In this document: one piece after another, positions 3,077 through 62,325 of the stretch
How the letters are laid out: each line of letters begins with the position of its first letter
Position numbering within the stretch: the first letter of the stretch is position 1
DNA from: Candidatus Alcyoniella australis
GTDB lineage: Bacteria; Lernaellota; Lernaellaia; JAVCCG01; Alcyoniellaceae
Reading direction: 5' to 3'
DNA length: 64,000 nt
Assembly (NCBI GenBank): GCA_030765605.1
Contig: JAVCCG010000095.1
Location: forward strand, 10,972-74,971
The notes under the pieces: generated by a model
What the model was told of the DNA's origin: nothing
Database searches by the model: none
The model's input: the letters and a program-made list of their open reading frames with translations, nothing else
Program-made: the position numbers and the translations under genes

Positions 3077-4696
3077 ATGCCGCAACGCGTCAGGAGGCGG
3101 AGCGCGTTGAGTAGTACCGTGCGCCGTGCCCTGATCGATCTGCGCGGCAGCTGGGCGATGCTGCTCGGATGCGCGTTGCTCGCTTTGGCGCTGCCTACGC
3201 AGTTTGACCACAACCAGGGTCTGCGGATGCTCGGAGCGCTGAGCATGGCGCGCAACATCTTCTGGTTCGCCCTGACCCTTTTGGCCGTGAACCTGATGTT
3301 GCCCGGAAAGCCACGGGCCAAATTAACCAAATTATCCATTGTGTTACAGATCGCGATCCTGGCCGGGATTCCATTGTGGCTGTGGACCGCAATTCGAAAT
3401 TTGGTTTTGCAATCCAACGGGTTGGTTGCCGACGAGCTGGCCCGGAGATGGATTGTGCTCAACATACTGGGAATGACGGCGATCAGCCTCAATGTGAAGC
3501 GTAACGGCCCGCTGGATCGTGTGATGCGCGTGCCGTTGCTCGGCGATCTACTGCTGCCGGCGGCCGCTTGGGCCTCGTCGTGGCGCAGGTACTATCCCAC
3601 CGGCGCTCTGCCGCGGCAGCACCGCCTGGCGCCGCTGATCCCAGTGGTTCTGTTCGCGGGGATGCTGACCCTGCTGGGCATGAGCCGTGCGCCGTGGCGG
3701 CCCGAGGCCTATCAACTGCGCGAACGCATCCTTTGGGAGCGCGAGTGCTACGGGCTGGCATTGGACTCCGAGCAGCGCATTGCCATGGCCACCAGTCAAG
3801 AGGGACGTGTGATGCTCGTCGACACCTCGGAGGGCACGCTGACCGGCGAGGTCGAGCTGGGGATCGACGTGGACCTCACCGGCGTGAGCTACGATTCATC
3901 GCGCGGCCTGCTCTACGCCGTTGCCGCAGACGGCAGAGCCTTTACCGTTGATCCGCGCCTTGGCGAGGCGCAGTTGCTGGGTACGCTCGAAGATGAGCAG
4001 GTCGGCTTTGTTGTCGCGGGCTGCACCGACCATAGCTCGATGCTGCTCTCCTATGGCAACCAGGGCCGCATCGATCGTCTCGATCTCTTTGGACTGCGCA
4101 TCGAACGCAGCTCAACAGCGGCGAAGCCCAATTCGCGCGACTCGCTGTTCGACCTGCTGTGCATTGAATCGCGCGGGTTGCTCTACGCTTTGAGCCTGCA
4201 AGGGACGCTCGACGAGCTCAAGCTGGAGACCCTCGATTTCGAGCGCCGGGTGGGTGTGCCCGGAAACAGTGCGGGCCTGGCCTACGATCCGCAGACAGAC
4301 CGCCTGCTGGTGGCCGCGCCCACCCAGGCCCAAGTGCTGCTGATCGATCGCAAGACCCTGGAGCCCGCGGGATCGATCCAGACCCTGGTCGGCTGCCGAG
4401 CCCTGGCCGTGGAACCCGAGCAGCGGCTGTTGTTCGTGGCCGGGTTCGCGCCCTACCTGGAGATTTTCGATCTGGACACACTCGAGCCCCTTGACCGCGT
4501 TTTGTGCCCGCCGTGGGTCAGAAAGATCGTGGTCGATCCGCAATCGCGCCTGGCGTTGATGACCGACAAGCACATCGGGCTGACCTTTTACCGCTACGGC
4601 CCGGCGGTCCGGCGCGGACGCGGCCCGCTGGGCGCGTTCGACGATCCGTTTTTCCCTTTGGCGCGGGCCGTGGGATTGAGATTACTCAAACAATAA
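3077..4696 (+). CDS. Membrane-anchored YncE-like beta-propeller protein
   Basis: 539 aa. The N-terminal 200 residues carry about five hydrophobic segments (around 25-42, 58-76, 86-105, 125-140 and 184-201). After these comes a region of repeated beta strands (GLALDSEQRIAMATSQEG, GVSYDSSRGLLYAVAADG, GLAYDPQTDRLLVAAPTQ, ALAVEPEQRLLFVAG) matching the YncE/WD-like propeller pattern. No catalytic motif is seen. ATG at 3077 lacks a clear ribosome binding site; AGGAGG at 3092-3097 fits a TTG start at 3107 (residue 11) better. It converges on the next gene with a shared hairpin between them. Function unknown; a periplasmic sensing or binding role is only a guess. Confidence 0.7.
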   Translation: MPQRVRRRSALSSTVRRALIDLRGSWAMLLGCALLALALPTQFDHNQGLRMLGALSMARNIFWFALTLLAVNLMLPGKPRAKLTKLSIVLQIAILAGIPLWLWTAIRNLVLQSNGLVADELARRWIVLNILGMTAISLNVKRNGPLDRVMRVPLLGDLLLPAAAWASSWRRYYPTGALPRQHRLAPLIPVVLFAGMLTLLGMSRAPWRPEAYQLRERILWERECYGLALDSEQRIAMATSQEGRVMLVDTSEGTLTGEVELGIDVDLTGVSYDSSRGLLYAVAADGRAFTVDPRLGEAQLLGTLEDEQVGFVVAGCTDHSSMLLSYGNQGRIDRLDLFGLRIERSSTAAKPNSRDSLFDLLCIESRGLLYALSLQGTLDELKLETLDFERRVGVPGNSAGLAYDPQTDRLLVAAPTQAQVLLIDRKTLEPAGSIQTLVGCRALAVEPEQRLLFVAGFAPYLEIFDLDTLEPLDRVLCPPWVRKIVVDPQSRLALMTDKHIGLTFYRYGPAVRRGRGPLGAFDDPFFPLARAVGLRLLKQ

Positions 4697-59776: not shown

Positions 59777-59794
59777 GGGACACGATACTTAATT
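59777..59794 (+). repeat. GGGACACGATACTTAATT-type short repeat, copy 1
   Basis: GGGACACGATACTTAATT lies immediately upstream of the RAYT N-terminal remnant. The same motif with one or two changes recurs at 59893, 59968, about 60048 (minus), 61431, 61461, 61868, 61972-62029 (minus, two copies) and 63247. Confidence 0.7.
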
Positions 59795-59829
59795 ATTGAC
59801 AAACAACCTGTTTTTGTTATCTTTTTCCC

Positions 59830-59913
59830 ATGACACGGATATCGCGAGTGGTGGCCCCCGGGATTCCTCATCATATTACCCAACAGAGTTTTGGGGACAC
59901 GAAACTTAATTGA
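59830..59913 (+). pseudogene. N-terminal fragment of a second RAYT transposase
   Basis: ATG at 59830 encodes MTRISRVVAPGIPHHITQQ, the canonical N-terminus of REP-associated tyrosine transposases (usually PHHVTQRGN). After 19 codons the frame runs into a copy of the short repeat (59893-59911) and stops at TGA 59911-59913. The rest of the gene is gone. Confidence 0.75.
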
Positions 59914-59986
59914 CTGTTGACGCTATAAATCTATTAGTGCTTATCTATCAGTTACTTTTGAGAGTTCGGGGGACATCATACTTAAT
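59893..59986 (+). repeat. Short repeat copies 2 and 3
   Basis: GGGGACACGAAACTTAATT at 59893-59911 and GGGGGACATCATACTTAATT at 59967-59986, both followed by GAC. Together with copy 1 they bracket the RAYT fragment. Confidence 0.7.
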
Positions 59987-60060
59987 TGACGGTCAGCCAT
60001 ATATACTGTTATTTGTAGTAATATCAGCTGATTTAATCGATAATAAAGTGTCATGTCCCC

Positions 60061-60366
60061 ATAACTCCCCTTTCTTCTTCTGAGAAATACGATACTAAAT
60101 TTGAATATGCTAGACTTTGTAGATCTGACCTGAAAGGAACTGACATTACAGGAGCCAATTTAAAGAACTCAGATCTCCGCAATGCTGACTTGCGAACAAA
60201 GAGCTTTTGGAACGTAAATAGTCTGGAAGGTGCTAAGTGGAATGAGAAGACAATATTTCCTGATGGTTTCGATATCGCCGAGCGTAAAAAACGAGGCATG
60301 ATAGAAGAGAACCGAGAACCTAACGTTAATTCGGACGAAGAAAATAGTTCTTCTAGATATACGTAG
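60061..60366 (+). pseudogene. C-terminal fragment of a pentapeptide-repeat protein
   Basis: The frame from 60061 to TAG at 60364-60366 has no usable start codon but reads FEYARLCRSDLKGTDITGAN then LKNSDLRNADLR, i.e. A(D/N)LxN pentapeptide repeats, then KSFWNVNSLEGAKWNEKTIFPDG and an acidic tail. It begins directly beside an inverted copy of the short repeat (about 60048-60070). Likely a truncated gene. Confidence 0.65.
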
Positions 60367-60497: not shown

Positions 60498-60526
60498 TTG
60501 ACAGAGATAAAGTAATTATGTATTCT
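60498..60526 (+). promoter_or_regulatory. Sigma70-like promoter for the tRNA-like leader and HEPN gene
   Basis: TTGACA (60498-60503), 17-bp spacer, TATTCT (60521-60526). A start 7 nt downstream falls at about 60533, the first base of the tRNA-like sequence. Confidence 0.6.
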
Positions 60527-60532
60527 CTTTAT

Positions 60533-60598
60533 AGGGTGATGGTGTAATGGAAACACGCCCGTAAGGGAGTCTAATCGGGTTCGATTCCCGGTCACCAA
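60533..60598 (+). ncRNA. tRNA-like leader with a stub in place of the anticodon arm
   Basis: Foldable parts: acceptor-like 5 bp (60535-60539 with 60592-60596), D-arm GTGT/ACAC (60542-60545, 60553-60556) with AATGGAA loop, and a T-arm TCGGG/CCCGG closing a TTCGATT loop (60575-60591). Between D and T arms are only 18 nt, CCC-GTAA-GGG plus AGTCTAA, so there is no anticodon loop. It is either a decayed tRNA or a regulatory mimic; no CCA-ready 7-bp acceptor stem forms. Confidence 0.5.
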
Positions 60599-60632
60599 AG
60601 GGTATCGATTATTCCGGTCTCCTTTGGTGACC
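60590..60632 (+). promoter_or_regulatory. 11-bp inverted repeat overlapping the tRNA-like acceptor strand
   Basis: GGTCACCAAAG (60590-60600) and CTTTGGTGACC (60622-60632) are perfectly complementary with a 21-nt loop. The left arm is the 3' strand of the tRNA-like acceptor and part of its T-stem, so the two folds exclude each other. No U-tract follows. It ends 20 bp before the HEPN start codon. Confidence 0.6.
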
Positions 60633-60652
60633 TGAAATCACGAAGTGAGTGC

Positions 60653-61375
60653 ATGAAATCAAAAGAGAAAATTTATAAGTTTCATGTTAAAAACCTTAGA
60701 TCCGTTGAAAGCGGCATGCTTCAAGTCGCTCGCTCAATTCGAAAAGCGATTTCCAAGGACGAAAAAACCATTGTTGATTCCTTTACGAGGTTATTCGCCC
60801 TATTGCTTGGCGTATGGTCCGAGTGCCGACTTTGCAAGCTAACATTTGAACCTAACGCTTTTAATGACATAGATATTGAATTGATTTATGATCAACCAAC
60901 ACAAATAGACAAGTGGCAGAAAGCAATTGAATTGGCTTTCCGAAAACACTATAAAGTCCCTAGGGCTGCCCTTTCAGATACAACGTTACCCCATTCAGTT
61001 TTCGCGAGATACACGACATTGATTGGCCTCCTTGAAAACGACCTTAAGCCTATTATTGAACTCAGGAATAAACTTGCGCATGGTCAGTGGATTTATCCAT
61101 TAAATTACGATGGGAATGACATCGCCCAGAAACAAATGGATGCCCTACGCTTAGAAAACCTTCTGTCACTCCAATATAAAGCAAAGATATTATCTTATAT
61201 CACTGATATTGTTAATGATCTAGCGGTATCTGAATCAACATTCGACCGCGATTTTGATAAGCATTACTCTCTGGTTATTCAAATAAGAACTAATCTTAGC
61301 AAGCATAGCTATTGTAACTATGAACGACGGCTAAAACAAAACTACAACACTGGAAGACAACATCATGCAAATTAG
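60653..61375 (+). CDS. HEPN-domain protein, predicted ribonuclease
   Basis: 240 aa, mostly helical, no signal or membrane segment. The motif R138-N-K-L-A-H143 (in IIELRNKLAHGQW) fits the catalytic Rx4-6H signature of HEPN RNases, which act in toxin-antitoxin, abortive-infection and CRISPR systems. N-terminal part (FTRLFALLLGVWSECRLCKL) is a conserved-looking helix of MAE_28990/Cthe_2314-like HEPN proteins; this subfamily guess is weak. It is the only long intact gene in the 59.3-63 kb mosaic. No partner nucleotidyltransferase (MNT) gene is next to it. Confidence 0.65.
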   Translation: MKSKEKIYKFHVKNLRSVESGMLQVARSIRKAISKDEKTIVDSFTRLFALLLGVWSECRLCKLTFEPNAFNDIDIELIYDQPTQIDKWQKAIELAFRKHYKVPRAALSDTTLPHSVFARYTTLIGLLENDLKPIIELRNKLAHGQWIYPLNYDGNDIAQKQMDALRLENLLSLQYKAKILSYITDIVNDLAVSESTFDRDFDKHYSLVIQIRTNLSKHSYCNYERRLKQNYNTGRQHHAN

Positions 61376-61565
61376 AACCGTGCGTTTTTAAAGCCGAAGA
61401 GAGTTAAGGGGACGCCCATAGGAGTTAGGGGGACACCATCCCTAACTATTAGGAGTTCGGGGGACACCATACTTAATTATTACATAACATAATGTTTCTT
61501 AACATTTATTAAGTCACGTGCCTTCCGCGCCTAATGCCATTGGGGCCACCAAAGTCAAATAGTCA
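61376..61565. repeat. Short repeat copies flanking the HEPN gene
   Basis: No gene. GGAGTTAGGGGGACACCATC (61421-61440) and GGAGTTCGGGGGACACCATA (61452-61471, continuing CTTAATTATT) are two tandem copies, with a degenerate third (AAGGGGACGCCCATA) at 61407-61420. Confidence 0.65.
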
Positions 61566-61859
61566 TTGACACACCTCCTCATCCACTGGTAAAATATAGT
61601 GGTGCTCATTGAAATCTAAATCACGAACGGCGATTGGAAAATTACGCCTGAAGTCGTGTAGTTGACATAATGTTTTGCCAAAAATTCCATACGATTATAT
61701 CGCAGTAGAATTAGCAACTTACAAACCTGCGAAAACTCAACCTATGCGATCAACTAAGCCCTATCGTACTTAGGCGAAATTACAGGGAAATCGCGGTTTT
61801 TTTCGAAAGATTATCGCATGCGTACGGTTTCAGGATTACCCTGATTAATCAGCAACTTG
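61566..61859 (+). repeat. 294-bp direct repeat, copy 1 (candidate structured RNA)
   Basis: By eye it differs from 63586-63879 at about 17 of 294 positions, without indels, and about 99 bp (61725-61823) are identical. TTGACA (61566-61571), 18 bp, TAAAAT (61590-61595) form a promoter-like start. ATGCGAT (61744-61750) pairs with ATCGCAT (61813-61819), enclosing a CTAAG/CTTAG stem (61754-61773). A seven-T run occurs at about 61797-61803. No open frame is conserved. Confidence 0.75.
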
Positions 61860-62325
61860 GGGTAATCTGGGGACATCATACTTATTTCTGAATGAGTCCA
61901 GCTTAAGAACCGAAAATGTTAAATCGTTGATATATAGGACATAATCTTAATAGTTTTTGCTAGGAGATACTTTAATTAGTATGGTGTCCCTCGATTAACT
62001 TTAATTAGTATGGTGTCCCTCGATTAACTCCCTCGATTAACTCCCTCGATTAACCCTTTCTGTCTAAAATGCGCCAAGGACATCTTAATTAAAATCGGCA
62101 TGTCTCTTAAAGCGTCTTTCTCCGACGTGCCCTTCGGCTAATCACTGAAAGCGGAAAGGTGAATTAGGGCCGGGCATTAAGAAGTCCCTAGCACCTCGAC
62201 CCTGCGGGCACCGCTCACCCGGCAGGAAAACAAACCTGCGCGTTTGCCGGTAAGGAGCGTTGAGTGGTAAGAACGATAAACGATAAATACTCTAATACAT
62301 TATGCGTCTGACAAAGGATACAGAG
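61860..62325. other. Gene-free stretch with short repeats and a hairpin
   Basis: Holds a short-repeat copy (GGGGACATCATACTTATT, about 61869-61886), a tandem array (61972-62055) and a hairpin at 62219-62250 (CCGGCAGG... with TGCCGG, inner GCAGG/CCTGC). No gene recognised. Confidence 0.5.
61972..62055 (-). repeat. Tandem array containing inverted short-repeat copies
   Basis: Two identical 29-bp units (TTTAATTAGTATGGTGTCCC then TCGATTAAC; 61972-62000 and 62001-62029) followed by two 13-bp partial units TCCCTCGATTAAC (62030-62042, 62043-62055). The 29-mer is the reverse complement form of the GGGACACCATACTAATT motif. Confidence 0.85.

Follow-up and report, generated by a model that had tools for sequence, protein, structure and literature searches.

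A tRNA-mimicking mRNA leader stands directly before the gene of a probable HEPN-type ribonuclease in Candidatus Alcyoniella australis, and at a probability that we put near 0.55 it makes up a self-contained module that switches translation of this RNase. Comparison of homologous sequences strongly supports that promoter, leader, alternative hairpin and HEPN gene are one unit with two mutually exclusive folds, as the earlier note on this DNA had proposed. The leader–HEPN pair is apparently a real and undescribed genetic switch. The unit lies in the window, that is, in the whole 64,000-nt stretch of DNA that was analysed, and its features are collected in Table 1. The unit, both folds, their exclusivity and their co-inheritance come from comparison; stabilities and the accessibility of the Shine-Dalgarno (SD) sequence were computed.

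Table 1. Features of the leader–HEPN unit, in positions of the window
Feature	Position	Strand	Description
Sigma-70-type promoter	60498..60526	+	-35 TTGACA 60498-60503, 17-nt spacer, -10 TATTCT 60521-60526
tRNA-like leader	60533..60596	+	acceptor, D arm, stub, T arm; Rfam tRNA model sub-threshold
Leader acceptor	60535-60539 with 60592-60596	+	5 bp
Leader D arm	60542-60556	+	
Leader tetraloop stub	60558-60567	+	CCC-GTAA-GGG, three pairs, in place of the anticodon arm
Leader T arm	60575-60591	+	
Alternative hairpin	60590..60632	+	60590-60601 with 60621-60632, 12 perfect pairs and more pairs inside
HEPN-fold protein gene	60653..61375	+	240 aa, phrog_12663
R-x4-H motif	61064..61081	+	RNKLAH (R138...H143), HEPN RNase active-site motif

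The promoter that the earlier note had placed before a tRNA-like fold is confirmed in sequence, with a predicted transcription start at A60533/G60534, and the fold itself, said to have D and T arms and no anticodon loop, is borne out by the sequence and by homologous leaders. The window leader has a tRNA-type D arm with GG and a T arm with TTCRANT, and the 7-nt anticodon loop is absent, with the tetraloop stub there instead. The segment GGTCACCAAAGG (60590-60601) comprises the end of the T stem, the 3′ strand of the acceptor and five further bases. It is perfectly complementary to CCTTTGGTGACC (60621-60632), which ends 20 nt upstream of the HEPN ATG at 60653; thus the perfect match claimed earlier stands, and its length is 12 nt rather than the 11 nt given. 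Because both structures use the 3′ strand of T stem and acceptor, the hairpin excludes the tRNA-like fold. The 100-nt window leader folds into the hairpin with a z of -4.24 against shuffles. In the truncated leader the T arm is not the best fold by secondary-structure energy alone, and hence the tRNA-like fold of the window copy rests on comparative evidence. Upstream of the promoter, at 60085-60366, a pentapeptide-repeat-like frame remnant (DLKGTDITGANLKNSDLRNADL) without start codon was seen by eye. Repeats resembling GGGGACACCATACTTAATT flank the unit (59790-59990 and 61410-62040) and are scattered in intergenic DNA.

The open reading frame with an Rx4H HEPN motif, also pointed out before, encodes 240 aa and carries RNKLAH. 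The protein gave no match in Pfam (E ≤ 1), PADLOC or NCBIfam, the Abi_2 domain (PF07751) included, and belongs to PHROGs family phrog_12663, which is listed as of unknown function. All 40 aligned homologues share R138, N139, A142, H143, G144, Q145 and W146. The predicted structure of the protein has a pLDDT of 97. Plain Foldseek with this structure returned no match at E ≤ 0.001; in the VIA structural comparison the eight best matches were HEPN or HI0074-type chains with Z of 7.2-8.3, which is moderate for helical proteins. The top match was HepT of MntA-HepT (SO_3166-SO_3165 chain; Z 8.3, rmsd 3.7, 128 residues), and Csm6, Csx1 and AbiV came lower. The R-x4-H motif and this run of HEPN structural matches lead to the HEPN assignment, and from them we infer RNase activity, so that the protein is probably a HEPN RNase.

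Relatives of the HEPN protein were gathered by protein searches only, without use of the leader sequence, and comprised plasmid relatives, 80 genome loci and 15 viral loci. Their hosts are Chloroflexi, Cyanobacteria, Planctomycetes, Proteobacteria, Myxococcota, Bacteroidetes, Firmicutes, Actinobacteria, Deinococcales and methanogenic archaea, and phages also carry them. A tRNA-like leader, defined strictly by a T arm with five pairs and a D motif within 260 nt upstream, was found directly upstream in 84 of 95 evaluable HEPN loci, compared with 6 of 1,847 other 300-nt segments from the same loci; when four T pairs were allowed, the number rose to 89 of 95. Of the 84 leader loci, 62 also have an alternative hairpin with 12 pairs or more, as do 2 of the 1,847 control segments. 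A covariance model (R1) built from 26 leaders matched 51 of 75 loci at E ≤ 0.001, directly upstream and in sense orientation, one of these being a training row. Over 545 kb the only other R1 matches at this threshold were two at a single locus, L091, and in 289 alphaproteobacterial genomes R1 found one high-scoring leader, which was already known. Such a rare and sporadic occurrence of the leader–HEPN module is what mobile DNA would lead one to expect. A single leader was found at nearly all loci that R1 was run on, with no tandem repeats of the kind that make up type III toxin-antitoxin RNA.

The leader is also inherited with the gene. Leader type needs 6 changes on the HEPN protein tree, compared with 41.4 when shuffled, and the leaderless HEPN genes are two small clades and L091. 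In addition, genomes with leaderless HEPN genes have no leader elsewhere, and the weak matches checked in them were tRNAs. A pattern scan of viral contigs for D and T arms gave seven matches, of which six were tRNAs without HEPN and one was a leader with HEPN; D and T arms alone are therefore not specific. No neighbour gene besides the leader is conserved at the HEPN loci, which makes the leader RNA the only constant partner of the gene; integrases and AAA_15/AAA_21 genes turn up repeatedly, though at few of these loci. HEPN remnants that lack the 5′ part and the leader were seen next to sitABCD in the lambda-like Escherichia phages D2, 4A7 and Lambda_4C10 and in E. coli plasmid pMY504-2 (L042 3001-3297, and L043).

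The simple alternative of the earlier note was that a decayed tRNA gene lies by chance beside an unrelated gene. Such an origin would agree with the missing anticodon arm and with the score of the Rfam tRNA model (RF00005), which aligned to 60535-60597 with 23.9 bits and an E of 0.0078, below its gathering score of 29. No tRNA was called by ARAGORN at the window leader. However, 84-89 of the 95 homologous loci, which come from different domains of life, have a leader, the leader type follows the protein tree, compensatory changes are abundant in both folds (see below), and no sequence similar to the window leader occurs elsewhere in its genome at E ≤ 0.001, which also speaks against a truncated copy of a genomic tRNA. 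We regard a decayed or truncated tRNA as refuted, with next to no chance of being the right explanation, and each of the three refuting conditions that the earlier note set for its own proposal fails. Among 98 related genomes, no convincing DNA relatives of the window leader were found. No Rfam family matched the window leader above threshold, the sub-threshold matches at the window being tRNA, SpF41 sRNA (15 bits) and permuted tmRNA (11.1 bits). Over the window and 20 loci, no leader had an Rfam match above threshold, save one class C leader (L115) that matched the tRNA model.

Covariation was surveyed in three separate sets of leaders. In the close set, class A (26 leaders, aligned with MAFFT), 89.1% of cells are paired in the tRNA-like fold and 13 of 17 pairs have double changes; its covariation is 0.433, compared with 0.174 when shuffled and at most 0.144 in slid versions. 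In the hairpin of the same class, 86.8% of cells are paired, 14 of 19 pairs have double changes, and the covariation is 0.501 (shuffled 0.185, slid versions at most 0.164). For class B, which is independent and comprises 19 more distant leaders, the covariation is 0.393 in the tRNA-like fold (shuffled 0.177) and 0.755 in the hairpin (shuffled 0.241). The acceptor 3′ strand of class B (columns 79-83) is paired in 93.7% of cells when matched to the 5′ acceptor strand and in every cell when matched to the hairpin strand, and each of these pairs has double changes in both folds. Judged from this alignment, the three leader strands of class B evolve together. Kinship among the leaders inflates covariation counts, and the slid controls and the three separate sets agree.

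Class C, which consists of 15 loci between L083 and L123, has the tRNA-like fold (covariation 0.439, shuffled 0.178) and no alternative hairpin. An SD switch is therefore not universal, and the tRNA-like part is. Leaders of class C end in CCCCCC directly before the start codon, mostly with no evident SD. The place of the anticodon loop is taken by a stub with a loop of 3-4 nt, often GNRA or UUCG, in 66 of 88 parsed leaders, and the stem length of the stub varies among the homologous leaders that the script parsed.

Predicted transcription starts agree with a leader that begins at the acceptor. Over 65 leaders, the start that follows from the best promoter falls 12 to 6 nt ahead of the D stem in 38, and 31 of these have it at the first or second acceptor nucleotide; shuffled sequences place it in the 12-to-6-nt interval in 13.8 cases on average and in 25 at most. 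Archaeal leaders have TATA-like sequences at about the expected place instead, as seen by eye.

Folding computations describe how the two structures may follow each other. For RNA ending just behind the acceptor, acceptor and T stem are each computed to form in 34 of 43 leaders; with the downstream strand added, the acceptor forms in 0 of 43 and the T stem in 4 of 43. In the 30 leaders that have an SD-like sequence, the mean advantage of the hairpin over the tRNA fold is about 17 kcal/mol, and the unpaired share of the SD is 21% in the free ensemble compared with 44% when the tRNA fold is enforced. Enforcing this fold makes the SD more open in 22 of the 30 leaders and less open in 1, and the mean computed pairing of SD positions with the T/acceptor 3′ strand is 0.49. 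A ribosome-binding site is freed whenever a hairpin next to it is broken, hence the result on SD access carries less weight than the covariation. The window copy has a weak SD whose unpaired fraction barely changes, from 0.59 to 0.67, and no pairing between T-arm strand and SD was found there. This copy may be regulated through other features, or it may be a weakened one.

According to our model, the RNA would start at the acceptor strand, and its first ~65 nt would fold in a tRNA-like manner with a stub for the anticodon arm. Once a further ~35 nt have been transcribed, T stem and acceptor would lose their 3′ strands to a hairpin of ~20 bp, which would reach the SD sequence in most homologues and form the stable OFF state. 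The tRNA-like fold would be the ON state with a free ribosome-binding site, formed first during transcription and lost unless held; it is from the computed stabilities and SD access that the hairpin looks OFF and the tRNA-like fold looks ON. The holder would presumably be a protein that recognises the tRNA elbow or acceptor, and candidates are enzymes that process or modify tRNA, translation factors and the HEPN protein. Through such a holder, the output of a growth-stopping RNase would be coupled to the condition of the tRNA pool, with a role probably in phage defence or mobile-DNA maintenance. The RNase, if it acts on tRNA, may use the switch to regulate itself or to sense its substrate, as the earlier note suggested.

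The arrangement at L091 is different from that at other loci. The leader lies antisense immediately behind the HEPN stop codon (3618-3723, minus strand), the HEPN gene sits behind another gene without a leader in front, and the 5′ end of the leader, AAAGGAGGCTCTCTTGGATTCTGATC, is repeated before the next gene. This arrangement hints at a role in trans or at a rearrangement, and it stands against a purely cis-acting switch. As an antitoxin or cofactor, the tRNA-like RNA could bind the HEPN RNase and restrain it, either as an RNA of its own or once released from the mRNA: it would be a decoy tRNA without the anticodon loop, the likely cleavage site, and the hairpin would limit read-through or serve as a processing site. 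The stub in most parsed leaders would fit a decoy of this kind, and so would a tRNA-like part that is universal when the hairpin is not, an RNA that is the only constant partner of the gene, and an order of promoter, RNA and HEPN RNase as in AbiF/Abi_2 with its ncRNA (PMC12373285). However, the leader is almost always immediately upstream and in sense, and the hairpin competes with the tRNA-like fold base for base and often covers the SD, neither of which an antitoxin needs. The leaderless HEPN genes whose genomes have no leader elsewhere also argue against a partner in trans, and so do the leaders that were read, in which no terminator-like run of U follows the hairpin. We consider this explanation, the main rival of the switch, rather unlikely, and a trans role and a cis switch could be combined.

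Conservation of elbow and acceptor without the anticodon arm also bears on a possible processing signal, since RNase P, tRNase Z and tRNA-modifying enzymes recognise just these conserved parts. The leader would recruit such enzymes, and a cut at its 3′ end would free the mRNA from the hairpin; the SD would be left unpaired once the leader is removed. However, the start predicted at the acceptor strand leaves no 5′ leader for RNase P, and the acceptor has about 5 bp with no CCA after it, which make a processing signal quite improbable. The translational switch remains the reading that we prefer.

The covariance model that matched the HEPN leaders also reached a second tRNA-like leader with a stub anticodon arm in Bacillales, before a GNAT acetyltransferase gene (PF13302). 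It was read at L146/L166 (Lentibacillus, G101:C8:17492-17692) and L167-L184, with T arm GTGGGTTCGATTCCCAC and an alternative hairpin of CCACCCCGAAAUUU with AAAUUUCGAGGGUGG. Its core occurs in 94 of 120 genomes of the order and stands before the GNAT gene in 19 of 20 loci read; at L146 there was no Rfam match at E ≤ 0.5. The GNAT leader looks like a four-strand switch in which the tRNA fold would be ON, and it suggests a broader class of tRNA-like switches. A wider and more tentative proposal would be a pan-prokaryotic defence or selfish module, in which the tRNA-shaped RNA is both mRNA switch and physical partner of a tRNA-acting HEPN RNase, and loss, modification or occupation of tRNA, for example by phage, shifts the folds and releases the RNase; the Bacillales GNAT switch would belong to the same broader class. 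We consider this proposal less likely than not.

Several known systems resemble the leader–HEPN pair in part. As in AbiF/Abi_2 (RF03085, PMC12373285), a structured RNA lies directly upstream of an R-x4-H HEPN-type RNase, often in prophage or mobile DNA. However, the HEPN protein has no PF07751 match, the abiF RNA motif RF03085 has no match in the window or the loci tested, no terminator was seen, and the passages of PMC12373285 consulted do not call the AbiF RNA tRNA-like. HEPN fold and R-x4-H are shared with HepT and other HEPN RNases (MntA-HepT, Csm6/Csx1, AbiV); unlike these, our protein, which is 240 aa long, has additional helices and lacks both an MNT antitoxin gene and a CARF domain, and its partner is an RNA leader. 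The thrS and T-box leaders mimic or read tRNA to control translation or transcription, and the genes that they control are those of tRNA synthetases or amino acids. The HEPN leader, in contrast, is itself tRNA-shaped and stands before an RNase. In a literature search with preprints and most subscription journals outside its scope, the papers that contain both HEPN and tRNA-like do not seem, to judge from titles and abstracts, to describe the leader–HEPN pair.

The nearest described case is the yjdF riboswitch, in which a tRNA-like fold activates translation and the OFF state has the T arm paired to the SD, as experiments have shown, and which binds azaaromatic compounds in an extended J1/2 (PMC9142559). 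Both are mRNA leaders with a tRNA-like fold whose D and T loops form an elbow, and in both the SD is taken up by a T-arm strand when the switch is OFF, for the HEPN leader by computation in most of 30 loci. Gene family and hosts are different, and the yjdF family has no Rfam match at its gathering score over the window and 20 loci, and none at E ≤ 10 at the window leader. Moreover, the HEPN leader has a stub anticodon arm, and its OFF partner is a dedicated hairpin strand of ~20 bp with covariation. By analogy, the HEPN leader would work like yjdF, but it is not yjdF. If our reading is true, it offers a handle on how RNA-cutting defence or addiction enzymes stay silent and get released, and the RNA family, which is not in Rfam, and the protein family, which has no named function, are both easily testable. 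The HEPN leader would then be a new RNA family on a HEPN RNase and a tRNA-like translational switch, and tRNA-like leaders would be a recurrent form of gene control of which yjdF is the described case.
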